The notes under the pieces were generated by a model. It saw nothing but the letters and a program-made list of their open reading frames with translations. It was not told where the DNA came from and did no database searches. DNA of 30,691 nt from a virus, in the IMG/VR virus record IMGVR_UViG_3300042466_000171, positions 1-30,691 of that record. One strand, 5' to 3'. Shown in pieces: positions 1 through 14,610 of the stretch. The translations under genes were made by a program, and so were the position numbers. How positions within the stretch are numbered: position 1 is the stretch's first letter; each line of letters starts with the position of its first letter.

Positions 1-127
1 AATAACTGGAGTTAAATTTGAGTCTGTTAAATTAGTAGCAATACCAGATACCTCATTAAATGCTACATAAACTGATTTAGCAGTACCTCCTGAAAAATAT
101 AATGAAACCCCGCCAAAATTAGTTCTT
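1..127. repeat. 127-bp direct repeat of the window end (circular overlap)
   Basis: Bases 1-127 match 30565-30691 exactly by eye. The repeat lies inside a single open reading frame that continues across the junction, so it marks a circular or circularly permuted molecule rather than a gene boundary. A length of 127 equals a common maximum assembly k-mer, so this is most simply the overlap left when a circular contig is linearised. The non-redundant length is then 30,564 bp. Confidence 0.93.
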
Positions 128-579
128 GTAGTTTCTTTTTTTACGAAAGTTGAAAATGTATAAGTGCTATTAGCAGAAACTGAAAAAGTTTGTGAAATAT
201 ATTTATAATTAGTTCCATCAGCAGACTGAATTGAATCAGCAGTTGTTGTTCCATCAGGTGCAACTACCACATTTGATACAATTGTAGGGGAATTTGTTTT
301 AGTCCAAGAAGCAGAACCAAGACCTTGGCTTTGTAAAATTAGGTTTGTCCGTTGTGGCTCAAGCAATAATTTTGGACAACCCCCACCTAAATAATCAATT
401 CTTGGAATGTTTGCTGCATCAACTTCAATCAATCCACTTGGATTAACTCTTGTGGCAGTATCTCCAGTGCGTGCAAATGTCATATCCCCAGTTCCATCCG
501 AAGGAATGATAGAGTAAAGTTTTGATGCTTTAAAGCCGTTAGGTGTAACAACCAGACTGGCAGTATCTAATAAATTCAT
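1..579 (-). CDS. Fibre / LamG-like virion protein, N-terminal 193 codons (continues at 30564)
   Basis: The ATG at 579 opens a frame that runs off the window start with no stop. Joined through the 127-bp overlap it continues in frame from 30564 to the stop at 29890, giving about 417 residues. This half starts MNLLDTASLVVTPNG and contains LLLEPQRTNLILQS followed by ASWTKTN. The RTNL..(S)..ASW signature is what I know from the carbohydrate-binding/LamG-like part of phage head-fibre and tail-fibre proteins. It lies just downstream of a Gly-Trp repeat protein and upstream of the lysis genes. I infer a virion surface protein that may bind host glycans; whether it sits on head or tail cannot be told from sequence. 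Confidence 0.85.
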   Translation of the reverse strand, partial: MNLLDTASLVVTPNGFKASKLYSIIPSDGTGDMTFARTGDTATRVNPSGLIEVDAANIPRIDYLGGGCPKLLLEPQRTNLILQSQGLGSASWTKTNSPTIVSNVVVAPDGTTTADSIQSADGTNYKYISQTFSVSANSTYTFSTFVKKETTRTNFGGVSLYFSGGTAKSVYVAFNEVSGIATNLTDSNLTPVI

Positions 580-585
580 ATTTTT

Positions 586-1041
586 TTAAGTTAAACTATT
601 TACAAAATTGACTAAACAAATATCAGCTTCAAAAACTCCACTATCTAACCCAACTCGACCTTTAAACGCTTGGCTTAACAATCCTCCATTTGAAATACTA
701 TCCCCAATGAAACCAAGTAAACAAGTATCTGCTTCCATTACACCGCCATCCGCTAACGTTCTTGCATTGAATGGAATATACAATAAGCCTGCATTTGTCA
801 ATTCTCCACGCAAACTATTGTATAAACAAGAACTTGCCTCAAATGTACCATTATCAGTTGCGATTCGAGTAGAAAAATTAGAAATAAAGCTATCAAGGTA
901 AGTCAAATCGCCAGTCAAATCAGTTTCCCCTGACCAACTAACATAGTGCGAATAACCCCAACCGATATTATTGATGGCTCCTTGCCCCCAACCGATTGCG
1001 TTATTATCAGCACCTTCTCCCCATCCTATATTATTTGCCAT
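586..1041 (-). CDS. Repeat protein: GWG/NN N-terminus plus three 35-residue EA..CL repeats
   Basis: A 151-residue protein made almost wholly of repeats. Residues 3-29 hold three copies of a NN-(A)-IGWG-x-G pattern. Residues 56-151 hold three tandem units of 35 residues starting at F56, F91 and F126. Each has the core F..R...D.G..EA..CL, and the first two end in an N.GLL segment. The same core occurs once each in the proteins at 3355-3789 and 13492-14610. I recognise no named domain. Its place between head connector and fibre genes suggests a virion decoration, fibre or fibre-attachment protein. The start at 1041 is the only ATG before the GWG repeats; the gene overlaps the small gene at 1031-1153 by 11 bases. 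Confidence 0.8.
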   Translation of the reverse strand: MANNIGWGEGADNNAIGWGQGAINNIGWGYSHYVSWSGETDLTGDLTYLDSFISNFSTRIATDNGTFEASSCLYNSLRGELTNAGLLYIPFNARTLADGGVMEADTCLLGFIGDSISNGGLLSQAFKGRVGLDSGVFEADICLVNFVNSLT

Positions 1042-1153
1042 TTTCTAACTTGTTTAAATAAACCTTTAATTTTTTAATGTTTTCATCCTTCGGTTTGTAA
1101 GTTCCCCTACAATTGCCAGCCGGAAAAGTCGCTTTGTTTATCTGGGTAGACAT
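1031..1153 (-). CDS. Small overlapping gene, 40 aa (GNCRGTYKP protein)
   Basis: Reading minus from ATG at 1153 to TAA at 1031 gives a 40-residue protein starting MSTQINKATFPAGNCRGTYK and ending with a Lys-rich amphipathic helix (KKLKVYLNKLENGK). It overlaps the 3' end of the connector gene (1107-1607) in another frame by 47 bases and the start of the repeat protein (1041) by 11. Without it there would be a 65-base gap in an otherwise seamless operon. The compact PAGNCRGTYKPK segment followed by a helix looks like a real small protein. Function is unknown; a small virion or assembly factor is possible. Confidence 0.62.
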   Translation of the reverse strand: MSTQINKATFPAGNCRGTYKPKDENIKKLKVYLNKLENGK

Positions 1154-1607
1154 CTGCGTTTGAATTAGTGTTATATTCAGGGAATAAACTATTATTAAAA
1201 CTCATGTAATCAATGAACCTTCTTGTGTAATTCTCAGCTATTGATCGTTCCTTTTCTACTAAGAAATCAACTTCTTCCTTGCTTACCGTGTCGCTATTCT
1301 CTGAATTATGCTTGTAAACTCCTTTGTTAGCAATCGTATAAGCTGCGAATGGAAGATATTCCACAAGGCTCCAGTGAATTAACATCGGCTTAACGTAAAC
1401 ATTAGTCAAAGACAAGTAATTACCAGCCAAAGTGCCAGCCACGATGTCATCATTAATCTTCTTAAATAACTTAGTCCCCAAGTAATTCTGAATGTGAATA
1501 TCTTGAGCAACCTTAACCCATTGCACAAAATTGTCCACGTCAATGTTGCCATTCAACGCAGTAAACTTTACAATCTCATCACGACTTACAAATAACGCTT
1601 GTGCCAT
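1107..1607 (-). CDS. Head-tail connector-like protein (DUF6712-type)
   Basis: A 166-residue, mostly helical protein. The N-terminal segment (DNFVQWVKVAQDIHIQNYLG, residues about 25-44) followed by TKLFKKIN is what I know from a Bacteroidota phage family placed next to the portal and probably equivalent to gp6-type head-completion (adaptor) proteins. It follows the portal gene by 3 bases, the usual position for a connector that docks under the portal and joins head to tail. The C-terminus (SDFSGWQL) is short and polar. The family name is from memory; the connector role rests on length, helical content and position. Confidence 0.66.
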   Translation of the reverse strand: MAQALFVSRDEIVKFTALNGNIDVDNFVQWVKVAQDIHIQNYLGTKLFKKINDDIVAGTLAGNYLSLTNVYVKPMLIHWSLVEYLPFAAYTIANKGVYKHNSENSDTVSKEEVDFLVEKERSIAENYTRRFIDYMSFNNSLFPEYNTNSNADVYPDKQSDFSGWQL

Positions 1608-1610
1608 ATT

Positions 1611-3362
1611 TTATTTTGGTAAAAATCCTTGATTTGGCATATTAATCGGCTTGGTGTAAACCAATTTATTATTAGTTGGCAAAATCTCGCCAGCCTTTCT
1701 TGCTTGTGCTGGAGTTATCTCAACCGCACCTTTTCTTCTTGGATCGGTAAATCTTCTATATGTTTCTCTAACCCAAAAATGATGGCAAGCTCCGCCGCCT
1801 TTGTACAAAAATATATCATAGGTATCAGCACCTCGTGGCCCCCAGCCCGGATTTGTACTTGCCTTTTGGCTCATTAATTCAATATCTTCCTTCCGATAAA
1901 TCTTATTCATCTGTGTCATCTTAACGCAGAAAGGTCGGCTATTTGCAGTTGTTTCTCCAGCGTACCGGTAACGGCTAATAAATAACTTACCATCTTGCTC
2001 AGACTTTAAATCAGGACGAGCCACTCCAGTAGTTACAAATTCATAAACCTTAGAAAGCAATGATTTTTTAGGATTGTTTAACGCTTCTAATTCAGCATCC
2101 AATCTTGCCTCCGCTTCCATATCTTCTACCACTCGTGAATCAATTAACTCCCATTCGTCCAAATCTATATCTTCGCCAAATTCTTCGAGTTCCATATCAT
2201 CTAAATGTGATGACAATTTAACTCCAGTTTCTTCCTCAGCCGTAGCCTTGTCAGCGATTGGGTTCAAATCAACAAACTCCAATGGCTGCAAGGTGCGGAA
2301 ATAAAGATTTAAGCTAATTCCATTAAATGATAAAACCTTTTCGATTCCATCGATGAATGTATCTTGAAAATAACGAATAACCATGTTGTCAAATAAGGTA
2401 ATCGCATTCTTTAATTCATCAGCATTTGAACTGAATCCACTTGCTGAAGGAATACCAAATTGCAACCCACTTACAACCCCATGACCTAAAAGAATCTTTG
2501 ACTTAGATTCCTCGCTTAAATACTCGTAATGCTTAGGCGCATCGTTCAACGGAATAGAATCAACCGTTGTCTTTTTTGTTTCATCATTATTGAATGAAAC
2601 GACTACTTTCTTTCCTTTTGATCCAGTTAAAGTCGCAGATACTTGACGGCTAATTAACTCACGTTTTTCTTCGTCAGGAATACCATTATTAAAATTAACC
2701 ACGCTTGTCGGACTGAATCCGTTCTGCACATCGTTAATTAAATAATCAGCAATTTCTTCTTCTAATTTGGCGTAAGGTATTGCACCAATATAATCAACAT
2801 TCGAGTAATACTTCTGACCAACGGTGTAATTGCCAATATAAAGTATCTCCAAAGTTTTATCCCCGAAACCAAAAGCCGGAATACGTTTAGGCGGAAACTT
2901 ATTAGTGTCCTCCCAATTGTCTGAATAATAATACGCTTCAATTTCTCCTTTTTTATTGCACTTCTCGGCTCTTAATAACTGAACTGGAATATGTTCAACA
3001 CGAATAATGGAATCTTTTGATTTGTTATAAATCAATTGATAGGCATATTGGCCAAGCATTTTTAAATCAGCAACACCTTTCTTCACAACATCCTTACGGA
3101 ATAGCATCATCATTTGAGCATATTCGTTAGGCTTCTTACTTGAATCGGTAGCATCTAAGCCACGACCATAAATTAACTTTACAATATTGTTAATTACTGC
3201 GTTATTGGTTGTCGATCCGTTGTATCTGTCAATCAAGAATTGAAAGAAATTGTTATCCTCTCCAAATCCTACCCAAGCATCCCGATTGTTTTCAGTCGTT
3301 TTCGGGGCTGAATACGCTTCTAACTGGACAAAGTGAATACCGCTTGAATTCTTCTTATTCAT
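1611..3362 (-). CDS. Portal protein with C-terminal Cys/His (MuF-like) extension
   Basis: At 583 residues this is a typical portal length with an extra C-terminal domain. The N-terminus (GFGEDNNFFQFLIDRYNGST, residues about 32-51, then NNAVINNIVKLIYGRG) is the pattern of Bacteroidota phage portals, and ATAEEETGVKLSS follows the central domain. From about residue 430 a second domain carries SRPFC (C479) and GGGACHHFW (residues 522-530). That spacing recalls the C-terminal Cys/His region of Mu gpF-type minor head proteins, so portal and MuF-like functions may be fused. The portal forms the dodecameric DNA channel at one capsid vertex. It overlaps the upstream gene by 8 bases. The portal call is firm; the MuF comparison is inference. 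Confidence 0.84.
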   Translation of the reverse strand: MNKKNSSGIHFVQLEAYSAPKTTENNRDAWVGFGEDNNFFQFLIDRYNGSTTNNAVINNIVKLIYGRGLDATDSSKKPNEYAQMMMLFRKDVVKKGVADLKMLGQYAYQLIYNKSKDSIIRVEHIPVQLLRAEKCNKKGEIEAYYYSDNWEDTNKFPPKRIPAFGFGDKTLEILYIGNYTVGQKYYSNVDYIGAIPYAKLEEEIADYLINDVQNGFSPTSVVNFNNGIPDEEKRELISRQVSATLTGSKGKKVVVSFNNDETKKTTVDSIPLNDAPKHYEYLSEESKSKILLGHGVVSGLQFGIPSASGFSSNADELKNAITLFDNMVIRYFQDTFIDGIEKVLSFNGISLNLYFRTLQPLEFVDLNPIADKATAEEETGVKLSSHLDDMELEEFGEDIDLDEWELIDSRVVEDMEAEARLDAELEALNNPKKSLLSKVYEFVTTGVARPDLKSEQDGKLFISRYRYAGETTANSRPFCVKMTQMNKIYRKEDIELMSQKASTNPGWGPRGADTYDIFLYKGGGACHHFWVRETYRRFTDPRRKGAVEITPAQARKAGEILPTNNKLVYTKPINMPNQGFLPK

Positions 3363-3789
3363 AGAAAATTATATTTTGCGAATGCTGAACGTACTCGTCT
3401 TTATTTACGCTATAAGAATCAATTTCTTGATTTGTTACAAATACCTTATCCCGATGGATTAAAGTGCTTGTATGGTCAAAGGATGAAAGGAAATCATATA
3501 AACACGACTCCGCTTCATACGTTCCTGAATCAGCCACCACTCTCGAAGCAAAATTATCAATTGCGGTCTTGTCTGAATTCTCGTTTATTGTCAAGGTATA
3601 AAAATGCCCTTCTTCTAAACTCAATACCTCTGAAAACTTTTTATAAAATGATTCCGTTGTACAATCAATATACTGATTTGTTTCAACGTTAGTAGTTTCG
3701 TTCCTTAAAAATAACTCATTTGGCACTCCCGTTCTTGTCGGAATGAACTTCACTTCTTGTGCCGTAGCTATCGCCTTCAATAGAATCAT
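3355..3789 (-). CDS. Virion protein carrying an inserted F..R...D.G..EA..CL module
   Basis: A 144-residue protein. The flanks (MILLKAIATAQEVKFIPTRT at the start; FVTNQEIDSYSVNKDEYV near the end) match a small structural protein I associate with Bacteroidota phage genomes. Between them, residues 80-101 (FASRVVADSGTYEAESCLYD and on) carry the module found in the proteins at 586-1041 and 13492-14610. The module interrupts what looks like a beta-rich domain. It is the first gene after a strong terminator (3822-3856), so it should have its own promoter or depend on read-through; I could not identify a promoter there. Exact role unknown; head-tail joining or tail-tube-associated function is plausible from position. 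Confidence 0.66.
   Translation of the reverse strand: MILLKAIATAQEVKFIPTRTGVPNELFLRNETTNVETNQYIDCTTESFYKKFSEVLSLEEGHFYTLTINENSDKTAIDNFASRVVADSGTYEAESCLYDFLSSFDHTSTLIHRDKVFVTNQEIDSYSVNKDEYVQHSQNIIFYE
3487..3552 (-). repeat. EA..CL module, single copy in the 3355-3789 protein
   Basis: Codes for residues 80-101 of the protein, with F80, R83, D87, G89, E92, A93, C96 and L97 in the shared positions. It shares the stretch GATTCAGGAAC with the copy at 14245-14310, but the rest of the DNA has diverged while the protein pattern is kept. Confidence 0.75.
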
Positions 3790-3821
3790 ATACTATAAAC
3801 CGAAAAAAACGATTTTGTTTT

Positions 3822-3856
3822 AAAAAGGAAAGACCGGTAACTCTGACCGGCCTTCC
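3822..3856 (-). terminator. Strong intrinsic terminator after the tail-tube-like gene
   Basis: On the minus strand a GGAAGGCCGGT arm pairs with ACCGGTCTTTCC across a 7-nt loop, with one G-U pair and one bulged base, followed by TTTTT. It starts 25 bases past the stop codon at 3881. It should end transcripts carrying the capsid and tail-tube-like genes and insulate the portal block. Confidence 0.82.
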
Positions 3857-3880
3857 AACTTCTTAACCCGAATTTAAAAA

Positions 3881-4405
3881 CTATGTTCCAGATACAACCG
3901 TTACACCGGCAGTAGTCAAAGAAACGATAATCATATTCGCTGGTACTGGCTCCTCGCCAACAACTGTCAAGGTAAATCCTGACAAATCTCCCATAGCGGC
4001 ACCAGTAACGATTGTGCCACCAGTAACTTCCATTCCGTTCTTTAATCCGGCATAGAATAATTTCCCATTATTATCTTCAACGATAACTTGTGGACGTCCG
4101 TAAGCCAATAACTTAATTTGCTTCAAGTCTTTAGCAGTAATCGACTTCAACGTTAAATTTAATGTTTGCGTAAAGAAAGTAGTTCCGTTCTCACGGCTTG
4201 AATTGATTGTTTGCTCAAATGATGAGTTTCCTTTCAAATCATATTTATATCCTGAAGGAGTTCCAGCAATTGCCGTGATTGCATCTGTATCAGTTGCATC
4301 ATAGGTAACACTAGTAGCATCTCCATTATTCATGAAATAAACCGCTTTCAATCCTCCAACACTTGTTTTGCAAGGCTCTAACCGACCTAAGCTAATATCG
4401 CACAT
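3881..4405 (-). CDS. Probable major tail tube protein
   Basis: A 174-residue beta-rich protein. The start (CDISLGRLEPCKTSVGGLKA) is what I know from abundant structural proteins of Bacteroidota phages, located next to the capsid gene. The central SFEQTINSSRENGTTFFTQT segment and the mixed beta C-terminus (GDLSGFTLTVVGEEPVP) fit tail-tube-like folds. It has its own strong terminator downstream and a weaker hairpin upstream, as expected for a gene expressed at high level. Two Cys near the N-terminus (C2, C12) are present. The alternative is a head decoration protein; gene order alone does not decide this. Confidence 0.6.
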   Translation of the reverse strand: MCDISLGRLEPCKTSVGGLKAVYFMNNGDATSVTYDATDTDAITAIAGTPSGYKYDLKGNSSFEQTINSSRENGTTFFTQTLNLTLKSITAKDLKQIKLLAYGRPQVIVEDNNGKLFYAGLKNGMEVTGGTIVTGAAMGDLSGFTLTVVGEEPVPANMIIVSLTTAGVTVVSGT

Positions 4406-4434
4406 AATTGTTGTTTTTTAGAGATTGAAAATAA

Positions 4435-4456
4435 GCGGAGCAAATTAATGCCCCGC
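4435..4456 (-). terminator. Weak hairpin after the major capsid gene
   Basis: On the minus strand GCGGGGC pairs with GCTCCGC (one G-U pair) across an 8-nt loop, followed by a broken T-rich tail (TTATTTTC). It lies between the capsid stop (4468) and the next ATG (4405). It could be a partial terminator or an RNA-stabilising hairpin that sets capsid versus tail-tube levels. Confidence 0.5.
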
Positions 4457-4467
4457 CCTTAACCTAA

Positions 4468-5421
4468 TTAGTTAGCTGAATTCGTGATACCGTAAGTAAC
4501 GATGTCAGAAGCGAATCCGTACTGAACACCAGCAGTCATACGCATTACAACACGAACGTTTTGTGATCCGTCGATGTCAGCCATGTCAATCACTTTAACT
4601 TCAGTCAAGTCAGAGATAAGACCAGTTCCGAAATATAAGTTAGACTTCTGAGCAGCGATTGCCTTAGTAGAAGCAAGACCATCAGCAACAAAGATTTTGA
4701 TGCCATCAAATGTCAAACTTCCGTTGCTATACCATTGAGTTCCTTGAGCGTTAGAACCATTAGCACCTAAGCCTGACGAACCGAATCCACCCAAAGCACG
4801 AACGTATGAACGAGCGATTGATTGAGAAACATAAATGTGAAGATCATCCTTAGTGTACAATGCAGAAGGAATTGCATCAGCAATTTTACCTAATTCAGTG
4901 ATTACGTTAGCAGCAGTAACAGTAGTTCCAGCAACTTCGTTAGCAGATGGCAAAGAAGCATCAGCAGCCAATAAAGTAGTTAAACCATCGAATTCTCCAG
5001 CGTTAGCAGTAACACCTTCCCAGATATTAGTTTCGTTCTTTGCAGCAACTTTAGCAGCAACGTGAGCAACTAAGAAATCTTGGAAAGTCTTAGGTAATAC
5101 TTTGAATGCAGAGTAACCTTGCTCAACTGATAACCAGTCAGAAACGAAATCTTTCTTACACAATTGTAAATTCACTTGGAATTCTTCTGGTTGTAAGATT
5201 TTCTCAGTCAAAGTAATTGTTGATGTAGCATCGAAATCGCAAGTTGCGTTTTTCAAGATTGCATCAGTAGCCAAACGCTTAATTACTTGCTTGTAACGAA
5301 CGTTAGGTTTTACTTCAATACCACCACGATCGATAGTAGGAGAAGATAATAAAGCGGCAGCGATGATTTTGTTTGCAAATTCACCAGCGTACGTTGTGGT
5401 AATACTTGTTGTAGTAGCCAT
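4468..5421 (-). CDS. Major capsid protein
   Basis: A 317-residue protein, the usual size for an HK97-fold capsid subunit. The N-terminus (MATTTSITTTYAGEFANKII) is followed by a segment on a conserved phage capsid theme (IDRGGIEVKPNVRYKQVIKR). It lies directly downstream of protease and scaffold genes, the canonical protease-scaffold-capsid order. Codons look more uniform and the protein is poor in Cys (C at about 62 and 108), as expected for an abundant product. It forms the icosahedral shell. There is no separate long delta domain, which fits with the dedicated scaffold upstream. The fold is inferred, not shown. Confidence 0.85.
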   Translation of the reverse strand: MATTTSITTTYAGEFANKIIAAALLSSPTIDRGGIEVKPNVRYKQVIKRLATDAILKNATCDFDATSTITLTEKILQPEEFQVNLQLCKKDFVSDWLSVEQGYSAFKVLPKTFQDFLVAHVAAKVAAKNETNIWEGVTANAGEFDGLTTLLAADASLPSANEVAGTTVTAANVITELGKIADAIPSALYTKDDLHIYVSQSIARSYVRALGGFGSSGLGANGSNAQGTQWYSNGSLTFDGIKIFVADGLASTKAIAAQKSNLYFGTGLISDLTEVKVIDMADIDGSQNVRVVMRMTAGVQYGFASDIVTYGITNSAN

Positions 5422-5444
5422 TTTTTAATTTAATTTGTTAATTG

Positions 5445-6044
5445 TTATGAAAAGATTTTTGAAAACACTGAATCTTGGATTGTTTCAGGACGATTTTGTC
5501 CGTAAGCAAATCCTTCTTGCTTTTGCTCAGGCTCTGGATTTTGAACGATTGGTTCTGCACCTTCCTCTTGAGCATTTAATTTAACTTCTAAAACTTCCTT
5601 CTCAGCTTTTAATGCTTCGTTCTCCGCTTTAACTTCGCTAATTTGTGCCGACAATTCAGTCCGCAACTTCTCAATTTCTGCAAAGAAAGTTTCCTTGCTA
5701 ACTGATTCCACGATACGCTTTGGAGATGGTGCTTGCGTTTCTGCTTCCACTTCAATCTCTACTTCTGGAGCTTCTTCCATTGGTGCTTCTTCTTCAGGCA
5801 TTGCATCTTTGATTTCAGCAATAATTCCTTCAAGAGCAACAACTAAGATTTTTCCATCTTCTAACTTGTACTCGCCTACTGGCATCGGTACAATTCCGTC
5901 AGCCGTAACGATTCCCACCGAAAATTCAGGCTCAAATGATTCAGCTTCGATGATGGTAATTCCATCCTCTAACTTCATTTGCGCTAAATTAACTTGGAAA
6001 CCCAAAGCGGCTTTAATCAAGTTTTTTTTGCTTTTGTATTCCAT
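5445..6044 (-). CDS. Capsid scaffold protein
   Basis: A 199-residue acidic protein. Residues 1-80 form a small beta-rich domain. Residues 83-104 are almost entirely Glu, Ala and Pro. A clear heptad-rich coiled coil covers about 115-160 (ETFFAEIEKLRTELSAQISE and on), and a disordered Gln/Pro tail with a short hydrophobic end (VFSKIFS) follows. Acidic linker, coiled coil and position between protease and capsid genes are the marks of a scaffold that guides prohead assembly and is then cut out. The C-terminal helix would be the capsid-binding end. There is no sequence match to a named family that I can claim. Confidence 0.82.
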   Translation of the reverse strand: MEYKSKKNLIKAALGFQVNLAQMKLEDGITIIEAESFEPEFSVGIVTADGIVPMPVGEYKLEDGKILVVALEGIIAEIKDAMPEEEAPMEEAPEVEIEVEAETQAPSPKRIVESVSKETFFAEIEKLRTELSAQISEVKAENEALKAEKEVLEVKLNAQEEGAEPIVQNPEPEQKQEGFAYGQNRPETIQDSVFSKIFS

Positions 6045-6055
6045 ATTTATTTTTG

Positions 6056-6244
6056 TTAATTACTCACATTTGTAATAACTCGTTCTTCGTTTACATTTGT
6101 AACCGCAGAAACTCCTTGCGATACTAATGCACCTACACCTTGAGAGATTAACTCTCCATCGCAACATTCACTTGAATACGTTCCGTCCTTGCAAAGACAT
6201 CCACGCTTTGCACCTTTCGGACTTGAATAACTATTTTTCGCCAT
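6056..6244 (-). CDS. Small Cys-rich protein (GCLCKDGTY), 62 aa
   Basis: A 62-residue protein with a basic N-terminus and four Cys in GCLCKDGTYSSECC (residues about 15-28), then a repeated SQGVGALVSQGVSAV segment (two copies of SQGV.A). It overlaps the protease gene by 14 bases and precedes the scaffold by 11 bases, so it belongs to the head operon. The GC.C.DGTY core recurs in the early lipoprotein at 20901-21107. The Cys cluster could bind zinc or form disulfides. Function is unknown; a minor head protein is possible. Confidence 0.7.
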   Translation of the reverse strand: MAKNSYSSPKGAKRGCLCKDGTYSSECCDGELISQGVGALVSQGVSAVTNVNEERVITNVSN

Positions 6245-6839
6245 CTTCTAATATGTTAATTAAATGTTCAACTAAATCTTCGTCTGAAATATCAGGTAAC
6301 AATTGTAAACTTAGCTTGTCAGCAAAATATCCTTCAATAGAAAAACCTTTTACTTCGCCACTTTTTGCCTTCTTCCACATCTCGTCATTATCTGCTTTCA
6401 TTGAAACCATCCAAGTTCCTTTAGGCAAATCAAACCCATAGGCTTTAGACTTGTCCATTTCAGGATTCGTAATGATCCACGATTCAACTAATGACATCCC
6501 ATCAACTTTTGTTTTGTGATGCAAAGTTGCGTTTGACTGATTGCCAGCCTTTAAATACATTTGACTTGCTTGCTCTACCGTTGCCTCTGAAAAGAATACG
6601 TTAAATTTATGCTCGCCTTCCTTTCTGAAAATCATTTTGTTTGGAATCAATGCTGGCCCCATCAAAATGCGCTTCTCAGTATCTACTTCGGCCAAGTTCA
6701 TTTCGTATTCCTTTGCCAATGTGATAAAATTGCTTTCAATCGCTGGTTTTTCAACCAATGAAATAGCTTCAATTCCATCTTGCTCGTTGTCAATAATTAG
6801 TTCAATAACACGCATATCCCTTAAACCTAAATTTCCCAT
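6231..6839 (-). CDS. Prohead serine protease (XkdF-like)
   Basis: A 202-residue protein that fits the XkdF-type phage serine protease family. The N-terminus (VIELIIDNEQDGIEAISLVE) is followed by the His region NATLHHKT (H107/H108), LVESWI (E119), DKSKAYGFDLPKGTWM, and the serine in GEVKGFSIEGYF (S167). These are the family landmarks in order, and S167 with one of the two His is the likely catalytic pair. The enzyme cleaves scaffold and possibly capsid N-termini during prohead maturation. The first ATG is at 6839; the in-frame ATG at 6815 (MRVIELII) is an equally good start. Confidence 0.85.
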   Translation of the reverse strand: MGNLGLRDMRVIELIIDNEQDGIEAISLVEKPAIESNFITLAKEYEMNLAEVDTEKRILMGPALIPNKMIFRKEGEHKFNVFFSEATVEQASQMYLKAGNQSNATLHHKTKVDGMSLVESWIITNPEMDKSKAYGFDLPKGTWMVSMKADNDEMWKKAKSGEVKGFSIEGYFADKLSLQLLPDISDEDLVEHLINILEDGEK

Positions 6840-6855
6840 TTTGTTATATTTTCGT

Positions 6856-8346
6856 TTATCCTAATGTTGCTGATACTATCTTATTTCTGTCTAATGCTTG
6901 AGCCGTTGTAACTTTACTCGAAACCACATAAGCCTCAATCGGTGCTTGATTTCCTACCACTTGAGCAATCTGATTAACTGGACTTGTACCTACCACGTTG
7001 AATCTTGGTGCAGTTTGGTAGCTTGGTGTCATCTGAGGATTACCGAATGACATTTGGCTTCCACTTGCATTTCCCGAATTAATATCTTGAATACCTTTTC
7101 TTGCTGCTGAAATGGCGGAGGCAACCCCTAAACCTCCAGCCACTAATTCAGCAATACCTAACGGAGTTAAATAACCATATTTAGCTGCGTTCTTTTGTGT
7201 ATTAATGGCAATTGAAGCAACCGCCGCCGCTTGTTCCAATACGATTCCGGCAATGGCTAATTCCTTATTCTCTCCAGCAATTTGTCTAAGTCCCTGACCT
7301 ATCCGCATCGTGTTAGAAATATAGGCTTCTTGCAAAGCTAATTTTGCATCATTCTCCGCCTTTACTAAATTCTTTCTTTCTTCTGCTTGTTCTTTTGCGT
7401 CTGCCGTAACATTTGCCTCATAAGTAGCTAAAGCCTTTTGTCTTGCATCGTATTCCTCAAATAATGCTTGACCTTGCTCTTGCATTCTAAGGTTTTCTTC
7501 TTCAGCTAATTTATCGAATGCTTTCATCTGCATTTCGCCTTCAATCTGAAGATTTTGGTTTTCTATTTCAACCAATCTTTTGCGTTCTTCTTCTCTTTGC
7601 GCTTGTAACTGCTTATAAGCCTCATCCCTTGCTTTTTTACGCTTATCAAATTCCTCTTTTTCTACTTTGGTTAATTCTTTTGAACCCTCTTGAAAACGCT
7701 TGATTGATTCATCGTAATTTTTGCCAAAATCTGTAACGGATGCCTTCGCTGATTTCCAAGCACCAGAAAAATCGCCCTTTACAAATTTAAAAACTGCATT
7801 ACCTAAACTACCTAATGATTGTATTACTGCCGTTACTGAACCATACACCGTTTGCATCGCTTTTGATACTAAAGGCAAAGCATTAATGGCAAAATCAACT
7901 AACGCATTAAATACGGGTTCAATTGCAGTAAATACTCCGTTGAATATCTTCTCTAATCCAATAAATAAAGGTTGTAATTTCTTAGTGGCTTTCTCTGAAT
8001 CATTAAACGCAGCAACCAAACCACCAACCAAAGAAACAAGCAATCCAATACCGGTAGCTTTTAAAGCACTCCCAAATGATTGCGTTGCTACCTTAGCTTT
8101 ATTAATTGACGAACCTAATTGACCTAATGGGCCACCAGCCATTTCCAAAGTATCTACCCAGTCAGATGACTGATTCTTAGCCGACTTAATCTTGTCCTCT
8201 AAGTCATCAATCTGATTGAATAAATTCTTAAACGCTTCCGTTCCTACCTCAGTATCCTTTAACTGCTTCTTTAATTGTTTTAATTCGGCAATCGATCCCT
8301 GAATATTGTTGTTTACGTTTAAATTTACTTCTACATCTTTCGCCAT
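6856..8346 (-). CDS. Tape-measure-like tail protein
   Basis: A 496-residue protein. It has an N-terminal coiled-coil segment (about 15-60), a Gly/Ala-rich hydrophobic segment near 95-115 and another near 130-180, a long charged helix at about 215-335 rich in Glu, Lys, Arg and Gln, and an Ala/Gly-rich hydrophobic region at about 345-420. Long coiled coils alternating with membrane-like helices are typical of tape measure proteins, which set tail length and help DNA entry. At roughly 0.15 nm per residue this length would give a tail near 75 nm. It lies next to the protease gene instead of directly after the tail chaperone, an unusual order. A large tail-tip scaffold protein is the alternative. 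Confidence 0.7.
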   Translation of the reverse strand: MAKDVEVNLNVNNNIQGSIAELKQLKKQLKDTEVGTEAFKNLFNQIDDLEDKIKSAKNQSSDWVDTLEMAGGPLGQLGSSINKAKVATQSFGSALKATGIGLLVSLVGGLVAAFNDSEKATKKLQPLFIGLEKIFNGVFTAIEPVFNALVDFAINALPLVSKAMQTVYGSVTAVIQSLGSLGNAVFKFVKGDFSGAWKSAKASVTDFGKNYDESIKRFQEGSKELTKVEKEEFDKRKKARDEAYKQLQAQREEERKRLVEIENQNLQIEGEMQMKAFDKLAEEENLRMQEQGQALFEEYDARQKALATYEANVTADAKEQAEERKNLVKAENDAKLALQEAYISNTMRIGQGLRQIAGENKELAIAGIVLEQAAAVASIAINTQKNAAKYGYLTPLGIAELVAGGLGVASAISAARKGIQDINSGNASGSQMSFGNPQMTPSYQTAPRFNVVGTSPVNQIAQVVGNQAPIEAYVVSSKVTTAQALDRNKIVSATLG

Positions 8347-8483
8347 CTTGAAATTCTTTTAATTTGTTTAATTCCTTTCTTTAAAGTAGTCGGTATTTCA
8401 TTCCTTCCCTTCGCTATCTCAATCAATTCAGACCGATTGTAATGATCGTGCGTCATTAATAAATTAATTACTTCCTTCATCAT
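8331..8483 (-). CDS. Small basic protein, 50 aa, upstream of the tape measure gene
   Basis: Reading minus from ATG ATG at 8483 to TAG at 8331 gives 50 residues. It starts MMKEVINLLMTHDHYNRSEL and ends with a Lys/Arg-rich tail (KKGIKQIKRISRWRKM). It starts one base after the stop of the adhesin gene (8485) and overlaps the tape-measure start (8346) by 16 bases, so it fills a 138-base gap in a packed operon. The first 30 residues look helical and might form a small helix-turn-helix. No function can be assigned. Confidence 0.6.
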   Translation of the reverse strand: MMKEVINLLMTHDHYNRSELIEIAKGRNEIPTTLKKGIKQIKRISRWRKM

Positions 8484-8484
8484 C

Positions 8485-10929
8485 TTATAAACCTTTTAAT
8501 CTTATTACCGTTGTGAAATTTCCCCAAGTATCGACATCAAACTGCTGATTCCCTTTTGTTGGAAGTCTAACCGTATGCGTTGCCTTTGTATATCCGTTAT
8601 TAAATGGATTTACAATAATTAACAACGCTTCCGTTCCATCTGTGGACAACTTATAAGCTGAGATAGGCTTTTGCTGATTGTAAAGCATTACTGGATAATT
8701 AGAATTGTTTGCATCTGTATCAGATGTCCAAGTTCCGCTAACTAATAACTGCGTTTTAGTCCATTCGGTGTTAGCCGCAACAATATCCCGATTCTGTTCA
8801 ACTTGCCAATAGCCAACATAAAGCCAATCGAAAACTCCGTTGTCTAATTGTTGCAAATTGCCAAAGCCATAGAAAAAATTACCAAAGTTAATATTATCAC
8901 ATGGCCCATGATTATATTCTCCCCCGTAAGCATTCGGATCGTCCCACATTGATAAACCATCGCAATAAGCAAAACCCCAAACCGCCAACGATTGGAAATG
9001 GCTTGCGCATTGTGCCGGATTATCGGCGATGTAAGTTCCGTATTCAAATCCTTTTCTTTCCCAGTTAAAGTCTGAGAAATAAGGCAATGGCTCCATGTAT
9101 CTCCACGAATATGGCGAAGCTCGTTTTATTTTAGCATCATCAACGCTATAAATTTGCCCTAATATCTTTTTTGTAATATCGTAGTTATGAACTAATGAAT
9201 AAAAATACCATTTAGTAACAATTGTATTTAAATAACCTGAACAGAAAAACAATCCCCAACCATTTTTTGCGCCTTCGTAAAACGCATTATAATTAAGCAT
9301 CGTGGTTCTGCTAACCGTTCCGTTTATATAGTAATTGTGATAATCGCTATATAAATCCGTAGTTTTTACCGTTGCAATTGATTCAGTAGGTGCAACATAA
9401 AGCCATCCACTTGTTCCAGTTCCAAAATAGCCTGATTGGTAAATCCCTTCTCCATAAATACTAAACTTAGGAATTACTGCGCCATTTGCTGCCCAGTTAT
9501 TAGCGATTGAATAAGCCTTGCAACTTGCAAAAAGACCATCCATAGCAAGACCGGTATTTAACCGCTTTCTGCCAACTCCAATAAACGCTTCTCCATCGTG
9601 TTCGATGATTGCAGCGTGCGTTACATTCATCGGATTATTAACATCGTTAGTTAATGGATTGAACATTGATAAATACTGATTCGCTGGACTTAAATCATAA
9701 TATCCAATACCTGAATTTATAGCAGTTGTCCACTCGTATGGATTAACTTCCGCATAGGTTTTATTGATTGTCCCATTGTTGAATGTCCAAGTATCACGAT
9801 CCGCAATTGGAACTAATAAAGATTCCAAAACTGCACAACACCATGATTGGTCTATTGTTGAATCCGTGATATAATTAGGATTTGATGTAGTTCCGCCTGA
9901 TTTAACCCAAGCCGTTCCAACACGAATAAATGTATCAGCGTGATGGTATAATCGGTCTGCAATAGGCACAACTTCAGTTATGTTGTTAGTTGCTACACCT
10001 CCTTCAATGGATGAAACATAATTTGCATTAACTCCTGAAACCTGACCATTTACAAAGTTTTTAAAATATGTCGGCTTGCGTTTTGTCAATCCTTTATTTT
10101 GTCTTCTTGGATTTCTAAACGTTCTGGTAACTGCTCCCGCACCTCCATTCGTAAAAGTTCCGCTATCCTTAACCACGCAGTCAAGCAATGGATTGATAAG
10201 CATTGCAAACTCTTTTTTAACCCCATTTTTATCAAAGATTGGCAAGGCATCAGGCATTCTTCTAAAGAATGTTGGATATTCTTCGGCTTGCTTTGGTATT
10301 AAATAATCAGGTCTAAAATAATAGTTTACTTTTCCTACTGTTAGCGTTCTGTTCGAATCGGCTGCAATATGGATAGTTGAACTTAATAAATAAGTATGTG
10401 TAAATCCTTGTATTTCAGTACCGCCCCACATATTGCCCCAAAGTCCATTACGAATGACTAAATCATAGCCTTTCATGTCAGATAAATTGATGTCAGTTAG
10501 CGGAACATTATTAATCGTGCCGTTCTCGACTAACCATCTTCTATCTGAACTCCAAGTTGTGTCAGTTAATAAATTTGTTGAAGAATTTAAGGAATAAGTA
10601 ATATCTAAATCGTTTGTTTTTTGTTCCCCTGAATCTGCGCTAAAGTTCATGATTGAACCATCCGCAAAAGAAACATCCATTCCAGCATTTACCAATTCCG
10701 TTTTACTTCCGACAATCTTGCCATCATTTCCAAGCGTAACGTAATAGCTTTTAAACTGCGTTGGAATAACATAATTTCCAGCACTTGCTAAAATCGTTTT
10801 GGCTTCATTCGTGTAAAATATGGTTGTTGAATCCAACAAGTTATTATTGGCATATAAGATTTGTGAATCTACATCCGTTGTCGTACTGCCTAACTTTGTG
10901 CGTGCATCGCTTATGCTTGAAAATGCCAT
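8485..10929 (-). CDS. Large tail protein with enzyme-like C-terminal half
   Basis: An 814-residue protein. The first 70 residues (LLDSTTIFYTNEAKTILASA) resemble the adhesin repeats at the end of the neighbouring 853-residue protein. The middle is rich in Trp, Tyr, Asn and Gly (VIRNGLWGNMWGGTEI near 160). From about residue 600 there are aromatic and acidic segments such as YSWRYMEPLPYFSDFNWERK and WGFAYCDGLSMWDDP, and a final beta-sandwich-like region (ALLIIVNPFNNGY). The pattern suggests a carbohydrate-active enzyme fold with a C-terminal beta domain, so a glycan-cleaving tail spike or receptor-binding protein is my inference. I could not identify a specific glycosidase family or catalytic pair. 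Confidence 0.6.
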   Translation of the reverse strand: MAFSSISDARTKLGSTTTDVDSQILYANNNLLDSTTIFYTNEAKTILASAGNYVIPTQFKSYYVTLGNDGKIVGSKTELVNAGMDVSFADGSIMNFSADSGEQKTNDLDITYSLNSSTNLLTDTTWSSDRRWLVENGTINNVPLTDINLSDMKGYDLVIRNGLWGNMWGGTEIQGFTHTYLLSSTIHIAADSNRTLTVGKVNYYFRPDYLIPKQAEEYPTFFRRMPDALPIFDKNGVKKEFAMLINPLLDCVVKDSGTFTNGGAGAVTRTFRNPRRQNKGLTKRKPTYFKNFVNGQVSGVNANYVSSIEGGVATNNITEVVPIADRLYHHADTFIRVGTAWVKSGGTTSNPNYITDSTIDQSWCCAVLESLLVPIADRDTWTFNNGTINKTYAEVNPYEWTTAINSGIGYYDLSPANQYLSMFNPLTNDVNNPMNVTHAAIIEHDGEAFIGVGRKRLNTGLAMDGLFASCKAYSIANNWAANGAVIPKFSIYGEGIYQSGYFGTGTSGWLYVAPTESIATVKTTDLYSDYHNYYINGTVSRTTMLNYNAFYEGAKNGWGLFFCSGYLNTIVTKWYFYSLVHNYDITKKILGQIYSVDDAKIKRASPYSWRYMEPLPYFSDFNWERKGFEYGTYIADNPAQCASHFQSLAVWGFAYCDGLSMWDDPNAYGGEYNHGPCDNINFGNFFYGFGNLQQLDNGVFDWLYVGYWQVEQNRDIVAANTEWTKTQLLVSGTWTSDTDANNSNYPVMLYNQQKPISAYKLSTDGTEALLIIVNPFNNGYTKATHTVRLPTKGNQQFDVDTWGNFTTVIRLKGL

Positions 10930-10930
10930 A

Positions 10931-13492
10931 TTATTTTAGTGTATAGAATGTAAATGTTTCAACTGCCGGAGGAATTACTGAACAAGTTCCCCAAGTCGTA
11001 ATGATACCGCTTGAACTGATTTGAACCCATGTACCATCGTTGCAATGATAAACGTATCCGTTACCAGCGTAAGGAACTAAGGTACCGGTATTGTTTCCGT
11101 AAACTACAACGTTAGTGTATAATGGTGTCGATTCTCCGTATAATGTCAAGGTATAATCCGTAATTGGACAAGCCTCAGTTGATGTCGCTGAGTTTGCATT
11201 TGTTACGCTAAAGGCATTCAAAGTCGGTGCTGGTGCTGAACCACATGAGCCAGTAGCCAAGACAACTCCAACTGAATTTATTTGAGCATAATTGTTTAAC
11301 GCAGTTTTAAAGTAATAGCTTCCGCCATTAAATAAAGCACCGGTATTTGTGTAGAATGTTGTGTTATCCTCAAACGTTGGATTCGTTCCGTAGATTGTCA
11401 ATGAATACGTTGTTAATGCACAAGCATCGCCACTCGTTGCCGAACTTCCGTTAGTTACTAAGAATGAATAGTAAGTTGTCGGGTCAGGTATCGCTGAAGC
11501 TACACGGAAATCATTTAACAATTCCAAATCTACTTCGCCAGTAGTCAAGTCCGTTGTAAATGAATTAATAATGTACCGCTTATCCCTAATAATCAACCGG
11601 TCATTTAGTTTTAAAGCATTTATCAAGCTAATCGGAAACATTGCCTTTAGCTTTAAGATTCTTGCCTTATCAGTGAAGATATTTGTCAGGTAATTAAGGT
11701 AGTAATTATTAAACAATGACCTTGTTTCAATCGCATCTGTAAACGTTGATTGTTGCGCCCCGAAATTGATTGTATTTACTTGGCCCGAGATGAGAGTATC
11801 TTGTCCAAAAAGATTATAGGTAGTAACGTTAGTAGTGCTACTCCCATCATTAAAATGAAAATGCTGACCTCCAGATAATGTCTGAATCGAATTGTAATCA
11901 TACAAAATTACGGGTTTAGGAATGTAGCTATTTAAGTCAAACTTTAAAGAATAACCAACTTGTAAATTCGTGTTGGTAAACTTCTGGAATGGCATATTCT
12001 CAAAAGGTAATGATACCTCAAACTCCTCGCCATCGTTGTCCAATGTATATTTCAAATCGCCGTAAGGTACTGCTGATCGTGAAAGGAATTCAGTCGCTAT
12101 AATATTCTCGCATTTTTCGTACATGAAATTAATCGCCTTGTATGGCTTTACTCTTTCAATGTCTATCTGCTCTGAAATAACGTACTTCGATACATCACGG
12201 ATTGTTCCCGCTGCATACCAATTTTCAATTTGCTCAACCTGATAAACATTGTCAGCCGTTGAAAAGCAAGTAAGATTAAACATCTTTAGAATTCCACTAA
12301 AGAAATCTTCCGCCTTCATATCAGGCATATAATCCGCAATGTTTAATGTCGTTGTCGTTGTCTGACTTGTTCCAGTACAAGTTACATCACTAACGACTGA
12401 TGTTGTGGTTGCGTTTCTTGTTTCAAACTCATAAACCGATGTGTAGGTAACGGCTGAGGCTGAGGAAATATAGAAAGCGTAAGTACCTGAATCTTCTAAT
12501 GGTGCTGACAAAGTCATCTGGCTTGTTTGCGTTAGATAACTCTGCTCGCTTAGTTTAACTCCATTCTTGTAAACGTATAAATAAAACTCCGTTCCCGATG
12601 TCGTAAATGTCAGCTTAATATTTGACTTGCTAAGGTAAACCGGAGAATCAGGCTTCACATAAGTTAAAAAACTTCCCGTTGGACTAACATTAAAGATTCC
12701 TTGCGTTCCAACCGTACTTGTATTTGTTTGGAATAAAATCTTTTGATGCGTCTGCTTCAAAGTAAATTCGTCCGTATTCTTTAGCCACAAAAAAGCATTT
12801 TTATACTTATCAGTCGCTAAGAAATTATCAGTCGGATTTCCTTGTATTGTAATGTCTAAGTCTGAAGCAATCGTTTCGATAATCTTACTAACTCGCATCG
12901 CTGGAAATAAATCGTGATGATGAATAGGTGAATTTTGATGCGAAATATCATAATTAGCTTGAACATGAACATTTGTTCCCCAAGTCCAATTATTAAAGGA
13001 TGTAATTAAAGGGAATTTAACGTCATTTGTAACGCCTCCGCTTACTCGATTCTTGACAACCGTTCCAGTATAAGCAAAGTTATAAGCCGAATAATCAAAG
13101 TCCCTTAAAAACTTACCACCAAATAAATCCTTTAATGAAAGTAAGCTACCAAAGAAGGTAATCTGATAATTATCAATTTCGTTATTCTTAAATTGTGCTT
13201 TTTCTAATTGAATCTTCCCAACCCTAAACGATGCTGAATTTATTTCGATGTATGCTGATTTTCTTGTCCGTGCATCAAAGCCCCCATCAATCGCATTTTC
13301 ATACCAATGCTTGAATATCTCGTTATTGTGCTTTGTTGCTGGCACCGTGAACGACTGAGAATAATCAGTAAAGACTTTCGAAATGTCATTTACGTTCTGA
13401 ATTGAAGATGTAACGCTAATTTTCTCATCGTTAAATAATTCTATTCGCTTGTAAAGTCCATCGCTAAGGATATAAATTGAAGCCGTTATCAT
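10931..13492 (-). CDS. Tail-tip / baseplate hub-like protein with duplicated C-terminal adhesin domain
   Basis: An 853-residue protein. The N-terminal half (YKRIELFNDEKISVTSSIQN, then SKVFTDYSQSFTVPATKHN) is a signature I associate with large tail proteins of Bacteroidota phages. RLIIRDKRYIINSFTTDLTT near 640 has the look of a hub beta domain. The C-terminus holds two tandem units (about 677-751 and 760-838). Each starts with a Cys after S/T-rich sequence (C691, C775), carries YSLTIYG or YTLTLYG, and ends with G.C (C750, C837). These look like surface binding domains, possibly closed by a disulfide. It joins the next gene upstream by TAATG. Receptor binding is inferred. Confidence 0.68.
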   Translation of the reverse strand: MITASIYILSDGLYKRIELFNDEKISVTSSIQNVNDISKVFTDYSQSFTVPATKHNNEIFKHWYENAIDGGFDARTRKSAYIEINSASFRVGKIQLEKAQFKNNEIDNYQITFFGSLLSLKDLFGGKFLRDFDYSAYNFAYTGTVVKNRVSGGVTNDVKFPLITSFNNWTWGTNVHVQANYDISHQNSPIHHHDLFPAMRVSKIIETIASDLDITIQGNPTDNFLATDKYKNAFLWLKNTDEFTLKQTHQKILFQTNTSTVGTQGIFNVSPTGSFLTYVKPDSPVYLSKSNIKLTFTTSGTEFYLYVYKNGVKLSEQSYLTQTSQMTLSAPLEDSGTYAFYISSASAVTYTSVYEFETRNATTTSVVSDVTCTGTSQTTTTTLNIADYMPDMKAEDFFSGILKMFNLTCFSTADNVYQVEQIENWYAAGTIRDVSKYVISEQIDIERVKPYKAINFMYEKCENIIATEFLSRSAVPYGDLKYTLDNDGEEFEVSLPFENMPFQKFTNTNLQVGYSLKFDLNSYIPKPVILYDYNSIQTLSGGQHFHFNDGSSTTNVTTYNLFGQDTLISGQVNTINFGAQQSTFTDAIETRSLFNNYYLNYLTNIFTDKARILKLKAMFPISLINALKLNDRLIIRDKRYIINSFTTDLTTGEVDLELLNDFRVASAIPDPTTYYSFLVTNGSSATSGDACALTTYSLTIYGTNPTFEDNTTFYTNTGALFNGGSYYFKTALNNYAQINSVGVVLATGSCGSAPAPTLNAFSVTNANSATSTEACPITDYTLTLYGESTPLYTNVVVYGNNTGTLVPYAGNGYVYHCNDGTWVQISSSGIITTWGTCSVIPPAVETFTFYTLK

Positions 13493-14610
13493 TAAATCAC
13501 GTTATTTTTAAGGTTATAAGCGTACTCAAATTCAATCTGGTAATTGATATTCTTATCTTTTAACGATGTTTTAATGTCGTTTTGGTTTGTCAATACTTGC
13601 ACTGGCTTACCATCTAATAAAACGGTATTGCTTAACATCAAATCCTGAATCAAATCTGAATAATTCTGATCCACAAAACCAGTATTTAACGAAATCTTTT
13701 GTGAACCATTGATATTGAACGACTTAAACTGCCCACGACTTACGTTATAATTAACATTATCAGGCAAAAGATTATGACGAGTTTTCTCAACGCTGATTGA
13801 ACTTGCTTGCGCTTTGAAGAAAGTAAGGAATTGCCAACCTCCGTAACGATTAATAAACTGACATAGAACCGGTGTATATTTTGTTTCGCAAATCGGTGCA
13901 ATGTTGTATGTGTAAAGCGTTGTTCCGTTGCTCTTAACTCGTAAGATACTCGATGTCGTAAAACCTACCAATTTCAATGGCACTTTCATGTTGTAAACTT
14001 GCTTCGTAGCAGTCGATGCCAAAATCGTTACCGTTGTCGTTCCAACCGATGTAACATAATCAGCCGTAACGCTGGTGCCGGTATGGTCGATTAAAACATT
14101 GACATACATATTATCCGTATTATTCAAATAGGTAATTGTCTTAGCCGTATCAGCTAAAGCCACGATATTGGCATTATTGCTTTGATTGTAGCCACCCGAA
14201 TAATTATTATAACCATCTACACCAACCCCAATAAGATAATCGCCCATAAACGTTCCTAAGCAGTTGTCCGCCTCGTAAGTTCCTGAATCTGCAATTACCC
14301 TTGTCTTAAATGCACTTGTTCTATTTGTTCCGTTGCTAAATGAAACCGCTTTAAAGTTTACAAAAGATGTCGATGATTCAGTCGCTGGTGTCGGATCGTA
14401 TGTCGGTGTAATATTTTCAATATACTCACGCAAGTAAGGTGCAATATCATAATTCGATTCAGTCTGGGAAACCGATGGTGCCGCCTTCGTGAATGAATAA
14501 GTATGTGATGCTGGCTCTGTTGCGCCATTCCAAACGTATAGCTTTAAAGTCGTATTTGTGCTTCCGGTAATCGAAATAAAATACGGACTTCTTGCGTTAA
14601 TCGTTATCAT
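13492..14610 (-). CDS. Tail-associated protein carrying an inserted EA..CL module
   Basis: A 372-residue beta-rich protein. The N-terminus (MITINARSPYFISITG, then LKLYVWNGATEPASHTYSFT) looks like a fibronectin/Ig-like domain. The later part has FINRYGGWQFLTFFKAQASS and NTVLLDGKPVQVLTNQNDI, which I know from tail proteins of Bacteroidota phages next to the hub. Residues 101-122 (FKTRVIADSGTYEADNCLGT and on) hold the module shared with the proteins at 586-1041 and 3355-3789. It is placed just before a VGVDGYNNYSGGYNQ segment, as if inserted in a loop. ATGA overlap with the upstream gene and TAATG with the next. A role at the tail tip is inferred. Confidence 0.65.
   Translation of the reverse strand: MITINARSPYFISITGSTNTTLKLYVWNGATEPASHTYSFTKAAPSVSQTESNYDIAPYLREYIENITPTYDPTPATESSTSFVNFKAVSFSNGTNRTSAFKTRVIADSGTYEADNCLGTFMGDYLIGVGVDGYNNYSGGYNQSNNANIVALADTAKTITYLNNTDNMYVNVLIDHTGTSVTADYVTSVGTTTVTILASTATKQVYNMKVPLKLVGFTTSSILRVKSNGTTLYTYNIAPICETKYTPVLCQFINRYGGWQFLTFFKAQASSISVEKTRHNLLPDNVNYNVSRGQFKSFNINGSQKISLNTGFVDQNYSDLIQDLMLSNTVLLDGKPVQVLTNQNDIKTSLKDKNINYQIEFEYAYNLKNNVI
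14245..14310 (-). repeat. EA..CL module, single copy in the 13492-14610 protein
   Basis: Codes for residues 101-122, with F101, R104, D108, G110, E113, A114, C117 and L118 in the shared positions. It is closest to the copy at 3487-3552 (RV.ADSGTYEA is common to both). Confidence 0.75.

Follow-up and report, generated by a model that had tools for sequence, protein, structure and literature searches.

A short module in several phage proteins is inserted in frame and exchanged together with one type of fibre gene

Genes and features of the locus

The stretch of DNA analyzed here, called the window throughout, is a virus record of 30,691 bases. It ends in an exact 127-base direct repeat (positions 1-127 equal 30565-30691), and thus the window is probably the whole genome. 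Its gene-like long open reading frames (ORFs) lie on the minus strand. The closest isolate we found is Nonlabens phage P12024S (Inhavirus), with a portal protein 34.8% identical over 99% and a counterpart of the window's protein C 28.6% identical over 78%. A PHROG match identifies the window's 583-aa protein as the portal, and Pfam matches reveal a Peptidase_S78_2 protease and a DUF6712 protein. The portal gene is flanked by the genes for proteins A and D, and roughly 10 kb separate A from B. The features that matter here are the following.

1..579, minus strand: start of the fibre gene (MNLLDTASLVVTPNGFKASKLYSIIPSDG...), NCBIfam NF048003 at E 3.5e-21; continues across the record ends
586..1041, minus strand: protein D, 151 aa, the candidate adaptor; IGWGQGxxNN repeats at the N-terminus and three module copies at the C-terminus; its gene immediately precedes the fibre gene
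601..666, minus strand: module copy D3, FKGRVGLDSGVFEADICLVNFV (translation, profile)
706..771, minus strand: module copy D2, FNARTLADGGVMEADTCLLGFI (translation, profile)
811..876, minus strand: module copy D1, FSTRIATDNGTFEASSCLYNSL (translation, profile)
3355..3789, minus strand: protein A, 144 aa, between a 174-aa gene and the portal gene
3487..3552, minus strand: module copy in A, FASRVVADSGTYEAESCLYDFL, between ...HFYTLTI and DKVFVTNQ..., which are contiguous in module-free homologues
10931..13492, minus strand: protein C, 853 aa, without the module in the window
13492..14610, minus strand: protein B, 372 aa; the C-terminal part of its model resembles a tail-tube fold
14245..14310, minus strand: module copy in B, FKTRVIADSGTYEADNCLGTFM, modeled as a low-confidence loop (98-123) between strands 83-92 and 126-131
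29532..29888, minus strand: 118-aa gene after the fibre gene, exchanged along with the fibre in relatives
29890..30690, minus strand: rest of the fibre gene, NF048003 at E 6.3e-16; open at the record end, overlapping the first part by the terminal repeat

The fibre gene thus spans the record ends, and its two pieces were scanned separately for NF048003. Elsewhere in the window, a TTG-start frame at 15595-15906 overlaps a 224-aa gene (15663-16337) upstream of the tail genes; the two could be a frameshift pair. The C-terminus of protein C (approximately 10931-11420) contains two segments that look similar by eye, and many C homologues are only 640-710 aa long. Relatives are designated below by L and G numbers.

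A recurring module confined to phages in the collections searched

Five in-frame copies of the module exist in the window, all on the minus strand. Translation and a six-frame scan place them exactly where an earlier note, made from the sequence, had put them, and the pattern scan finds no sixth. The residues that the note called invariant (F, R, D, G, E, A, C, and L) are present in all five. Profiles built with one copy left out recover the omitted copy at E 6e-5 to 8e-11; with these profiles, the best non-module stretch of the window scores E 2.9. Among reversed and shuffled versions of 17,556 ORFs, no match falls below E 1 (the best are 1.8 and 4.3). The leave-one-out recovery and the decoys rule out a chance origin of the five copies.

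The recurrence of the module holds, and its reported length of 22 residues can be refined. Specifically, the tandem copies in D have a period of 35 residues, so the repeat unit must be longer than 22. We describe a core of 18-22 residues within a unit of 35-38. In D, the copies make up the C-terminal part of the protein, with no insertion; flanks that close up in homologues are found only for the 144-aa and 372-aa proteins. All three module-bearing proteins of the window are presumably virion proteins.

Profile searches yield hundreds of relatives and no decoys, rather than the chance matches that the note had named as one result that would undo its claim. In the IMG/VR collection, the five-copy profile finds 131 places by pattern, 86 of them confirmed, and a broader profile finds 283, of which 250 are confirmed. 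Among bacteria and archaea (84,980 species genomes), that broader profile gives 25 pattern places and three confirmed ones, located in metagenome assemblies named Psychroflexus, Lutibacter, and Flavobacteriales. Within these searches, the module is phage-specific. The viral scans retained the best 80 loci of 86, 250, 272, and 493 confirmed; many loci are near-copies, and the records are often fragments.

Altogether, 305 loci plus the window supply 173 module copies in 142 non-redundant ORFs. All 173 have glycine 10 and cysteine 17, 171 have E13, 170 have R4, and 168 have D8; because the copies were gathered with a profile, these counts lean towards the motif. At the DNA level, codon-position entropy is 1.39 at third positions versus 0.79 and 0.61 at the others, so third positions are the most variable. 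All 288 DNA-profile matches are read in the module frame.

In the proteins that we scanned, the module goes unmatched by Pfam and NCBIfam models, and four module peptides have no match in a full-text literature search. Judged by the peptide search and by scans of Pfam, NCBIfam, and PHROG, the module has, we claim, gone undescribed. Among isolates, a 26-residue consensus matches P12024S/L and, at E 2, a stretch of a Serratia phage. A partial module also occurs in giant ORFs of 2270 and 2427 aa from virus records of 69 and 67 kb (G032 62657-62713 and G033 47409-47465; E approximately 1e-4).

In-frame insertion in three protein families

The earlier note had remarked that the flanks of two copies look continuous without the module, and these flanks are indeed adjacent in module-free homologues of A and B. 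Searches with the module masked show how common such homologues are. The module is present in 23 and absent from 57 of 80 matches in the A family (window 3355), present in 20 and absent from 91 of 111 in the B family (window 13492), and present as one or two copies near the N-terminus in 27 of 128 in the C family, all three counts including fragments that may not cover the insertion site. Homologues that always contain the segment, which would have refuted the reading of the note, are therefore not what these families display. The same masked searches keep the B and C families separate from each other and from A.

The sites of insertion differ within families. B has three: that of the window (18 ORFs), a second in L067, relatives of which (e.g., L181) do not have the module stretch, and a third in L088. 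A likewise has three: the window type (21 ORFs), that of L107, and that of gp05 of P12024S, which is encoded directly before the portal gene and in which the module is weak by score (E 0.003). In C, the module typically lies between VALYIY and RIELFNDEKIS; the window's C has no module and forms a short turn at this site. Module-free homologues, three sites per family, and the mosaic gene described below establish that the module is an in-frame inserted cassette in A and B.

An AlphaFold model of B (pLDDT 73) places the module in the 98-123 loop, where pLDDT is below 50. Residues 241-366 resemble phage hub and baseplate chains at Z 6.4-6.9, scores tied with those of antibody chains elsewhere in the model, and the best Foldseek match of B in the PDB is at E 2.9e-3. 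The model suggests that B could be a distal tail protein.

Linkage of the module to one type of fibre gene

The main result of this analysis, absent from the earlier note, is the link between the module and a fibre gene. Specifically, gene D is the last gene before the fibre gene, which encodes the NCBIfam spike-fibre domain NF048003. The domain is also found in the fibres of relatives (E 2.2e-70 in L126, 8.9e-69 in L039, and 3.1e-13 in L065). D proteins have very different N-termini and the module at the end; the IGWGQGxxNN repeats of the window's D (877-1041) are common to many relatives. Of 72 module ORFs outside A, B, and C, on contigs of approximately 4 to 100 kb, 56 are followed within 900 nt by a fibre start according to the pattern, three more are so by eye (L077, L080, and P12024S), and three are module-fibre fusions (L039, L047, and L054). 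Six others end at a contig edge. The remaining four either have a portal-like gene next (L064 and L128) or come from bacterial assemblies (L089 and L090).

The converse scan, which used the fibre N-terminus alone, confirmed 493 places; the best 80 loci were kept, and 76 of them have upstream sequence. In these 76, the ORF upstream of the fibre ends in the module in 47 cases, in a look-alike in 27, and in neither in two. Look-alikes, nearly all from one 67-aa lineage, were called on position plus the residues R, GG, E, and C. Their E values are 0.03 to 0.81 in the set of 76 sequences, and the 19 that were checked against the full ORF set give E 11 to 34 or no match, and so are not significant by score. 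In all 74 module or look-alike loci, the upstream ORF shares 4 nt with the start of the fibre gene, an overlap suggestive of translational coupling between D and the fibre; in the window, the two genes lie six bases apart. XXXYYYN heptamers, candidate frameshift sites leading from D into the fibre, are present in 20 of 37 distinct junctions.

The fibre domain has matches in 429 phage records and, among the matches listed, these concern largely the C-terminal domain; the N-terminal part of the fibre finds 17 phage records. D itself has no significant match in Pfam, NCBIfam, or PDB sequences, and its model is poor (151 aa, pLDDT 41), with the module region all-helical at low confidence. A resemblance of the D profile to lambda Cro in the PDB sequence search reached only E 0.74 and 0.87 and was taken as chance. 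Extra ORFs lie between the portal and the next gene or between the adaptor and the fibre in L291 (9737 onwards), L283 (9805 onwards), and L140 (10075 onwards); by eye, these resemble homing endonucleases.

Joint presence and absence

The module is gained and lost jointly across genes. Among 33 module-bearing records, it is present in two or more genes in 22 and in one gene in 11. Thus, tail copies are not obligatory; in the 32-kb L077 record, for instance, D has the module and no other gene does. Conversely, 28 relatives selected because their A or B has no module contain no copy anywhere at E 0.01, with the scans of the 33 records and of 38 portal-set records serving as positive controls. The latter set, eight of whose records overlap the other two scans, comprises 15 records with the module and 23 without, and the 23 are those with no module in A and D. 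When the portal set is de-duplicated to 49, A and D both have the module in 14 cases, D only in seven, neither in 28, and A only in none. Outside the 49 are 19 rows with a D-linked fibre, no D module, and no A gene in view, all of which are look-alike loci of the fibre N-terminus scan.

In the module-free relatives that we inspected, D and its fibre are usually replaced by a 112-aa protein (MSLNFSHIKADTFDQVNFELKI or similar; e.g., L264 10307-10645) and a different fibre, which can reach 1542 aa; several of these fibres are cut by contig ends. The 112-aa protein has no NCBIfam match; by eye, we presume it to resemble the N-terminus of a baseplate upper protein. L305 combines a D-like GWG N-terminus with a different C-terminus and a different fibre, and has no module.

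Exchange as a set between near-identical backbones

On a portal tree of 49 tips, the module label needs five changes, at least four of them on supported branches, and L261 and L013 fall inside module-free groups. This is a quick tree in which two long end branches are flagged. It contains four independent switch pairs, too few for significance in a sign test (p 0.125-0.25).

Two of the switches can be followed gene by gene. Relative to the module-free L264/L226, L261 is 96% identical in the portal, 92% in the next gene, 95% in the 174-aa protein, 97% in the protease, and 96% in an 814-aa protein, and most genes around the terminase are 94-99% identical; the major-capsid- and scaffold-like genes are at 88-89% and the tape-measure-like gene at 82%. 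Against this background, A of L261 is 45% identical to that of L264/L226 on ungapped columns and 72% to that of the window, the N-terminal piece of B is at 54%, and D, the fibre (assigned to the D-linked type by eye; the script label was "None"), and the 118-aa gene have no counterpart. Other differences exist as well: C is at 78%, the C-terminal piece of B at 77%, and a 90-aa gene near the terminase at 48%, and two L261 ORFs have no match. A second comparison, of L263 (the record of L013) with L262, gives 96% for the portal and 95% for the next gene and for the 101-aa and 148-aa genes versus 48% for A, with D, the fibre, and the 118-aa gene again lacking a counterpart.

The B gene of L261 is a mosaic. 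A stretch of approximately 60 residues that includes the module is window-like in 13 of 17 informative columns, whereas its flanks are L226-like in 34 of 42 (13:4 versus 8:34, p=6e-5, with the stretch bounds set after viewing the alignment). The C-terminal piece is L226-like in 66 of 77 columns. Thus, the exchange enters the gene and takes the module along with its surroundings. The data do not support recent copying of the module from gene to gene within a genome: D and tail copies from the same genome are no more alike than those from different genomes (p=0.30), as judged from 17 genomes with both copies of 27 listed by hand, most genomes with C copies having been dropped since their D copy was absent from the stored ORFs.

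A putative mount for the fibre and its rivals

We favor, with moderate confidence, the view that the module is a small phage domain serving as a putative mount for one kind of receptor-type fibre. Its fold is probably a helix-turn-helix hairpin. The home of the module would be the C-terminus of the small adaptor D, whose gene appears to be translationally coupled to that of the fibre. Recombination would have placed further copies, in frame, in loops of tail and near-portal proteins (according to lineage, A, B, or C), where they would offer the fibre apparatus additional or alternative points of attachment. The module-bearing proteins would sit in the virion, where we infer physical binding of the module to the fibre N-terminus or to the adaptor; as its putative partner, we rank the fibre N-terminus before another module or the host surface. 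A precedent for the fibre-mount reading is the head spike of RcGTA, whose fibre is held to a base protein by N-terminal residues (PMC10218006); the window fibre carries NF048003. Of the meanings that the earlier note had proposed, a common docking peptide for one virion partner is the best supported, albeit putatively, because one fibre type accompanies the gain and loss of copies. For the disulfide-forming or metal-binding patch of that note, the relevant observation is the cysteine found in all 173 profile-detected copies.

Other explanations account for parts of the data. The module could be a weak host-surface adhesion domain, spread over several virion proteins so as to raise avidity; module and fibre would then travel together since the two are suited to the same hosts. 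The occurrence of inserted copies in several structural proteins, reminiscent of the phage Ig-like domains discussed in a review (PMC8718954), agrees with this idea, as does co-exchange with a receptor-type fibre. Nonetheless, adhesion leaves unexplained why the fibre-coupled protein ends in the module or a look-alike in 74 of 76 fibre loci (from the best 80 of 493) and why fusions place the module directly before the fibre N-terminus, and we regard it as unlikely. Still less probable, in our estimation, is homotypic docking, perhaps through a cysteine disulfide, in which the fibre-side D would snap onto A, B, or C of the tail. In its favor are a cysteine in all 173 profile-detected copies and the 22 of 33 records with the module in more than one gene; however, 11 of the 33 have it in a single gene, the D and tail copies of one genome are unmatched in sequence, and each copy has one conserved cysteine.

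Two further explanations were considered. An ordinary conserved domain of related proteins, inherited by common descent and lost in some, would fit the likeness of copies within each insertion site, which look inherited. Yet in module-masked searches B and C stay distinct from each other and from A, the insertion site varies inside a family, and the mosaic B gene reflects horizontal exchange of the segment, so we give common descent very little credence. A selfish in-frame DNA insertion would explain arrivals at several sites in unrelated genes. We reject it as scarcely conceivable: none of the 288 DNA-profile matches is off frame, third codon positions are the most variable, and presence depends on fibre type. 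The mobile protein-coding repeat of the earlier note therefore survives as a recombining protein cassette and not as selfish DNA.

The fibre-mount reading can be extended. The notion, tentative and in our judgment somewhat short of an even chance, is of a portable fibre socket: a putative domain of approximately 20-40 residues, grafted in frame onto the virion proteins meant to carry a given fibre. If so, a change of fibre would be the swap of a dispersed, co-adapted set within a little-changed backbone, the set consisting of the adaptor, the fibre, the companion gene, and, from at least two tail proteins, the segments that bear the module.

Tailed phages swap receptor-binding proteins by recombination, and a new fibre must still fit its mount. 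The family described here displays natural, repeated exchange of a dispersed gene set, and of a within-gene segment, around one short module, and thereby offers a direct test of fibre-mount co-evolution. Should the module prove to be the mount, it would amount to an attachment tag that can be transferred and that is small enough for work with peptides. The phages that carry it recur in public environmental virus collections.

Comparison with known systems

Ig-like domains on the structural proteins of tailed phages were reportedly described by Fraser et al. in 2006. A phage Ig-like domain is a beta-sandwich of approximately 80-100 residues. Like these domains, the module is a small accessory domain in several proteins, presumably of the virion, and is absent from homologues; it recurs in families A, B, C, and D and in fibre fusions. 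It differs in its core of 18-22 residues (unit 35-38) with predicted helices and no beta-sandwich, in being tied to one fibre cassette, and in occupying loops as well as ends. D, A, and B have no Pfam match above cut-off. Failing on both size and fold, the module is not filed among Ig-like domains. For the latter, weak carbohydrate binding has been proposed, and is left unverified in that review (PMC8718954).

Rickettsia palindromic elements are in-frame inserts in unrelated genes that are conserved as DNA. The module likewise lies in frame in unrelated genes. In contrast, its conservation is at the protein level, and no off-frame copy was found among the DNA-profile matches.

The RcGTA head spike consists of a base protein pentamer and a fibre, and the window fibre likewise has NF048003, a "phage head spike fiber domain." No known base protein matches D in Pfam, NCBIfam, or PDB sequences, and the model of D is poor. 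The window's system also differs in having module copies in tail proteins.

A wider form of the module may exist in Serratia, Pseudomonas, and Acinetobacter phage proteins that have an N-terminal F.xYKxRVxADGG and a possible second helix (L392 2402-3307, L393 2435-3355, and L394 around 2501-2665). In the Serratia phage, the stretch F.xYKARVIADGG lies close to the start of a "virion-associated protein." Two of the three proteins, those of Serratia and Pseudomonas phages, were tested for membership of PHROG 28256 and belong to it; in Pseudomonas phage VW-6B, the gene follows a tail fibre gene. In these proteins, only the first half matches the module profile (E 2.8e-6 to 1.6e-4 in a three-sequence set), EA is missing, and the cysteine is missing in two of the three, so that these proteins may be remote kin.

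Another comparison is with PHROG 31097, unassigned in function, which matches the module region of D (E 1.3e-5) and of A (E 0.023). It differs in being a whole-protein family with no description of a shared module; its length, 125, is that of gp05 of P12024S. This isolated relative carries the module in gp05, upstream of the portal and at another site, and again near the C-terminus of gp09, which the fibre gp10 follows; the proteins are annotated as hypothetical.
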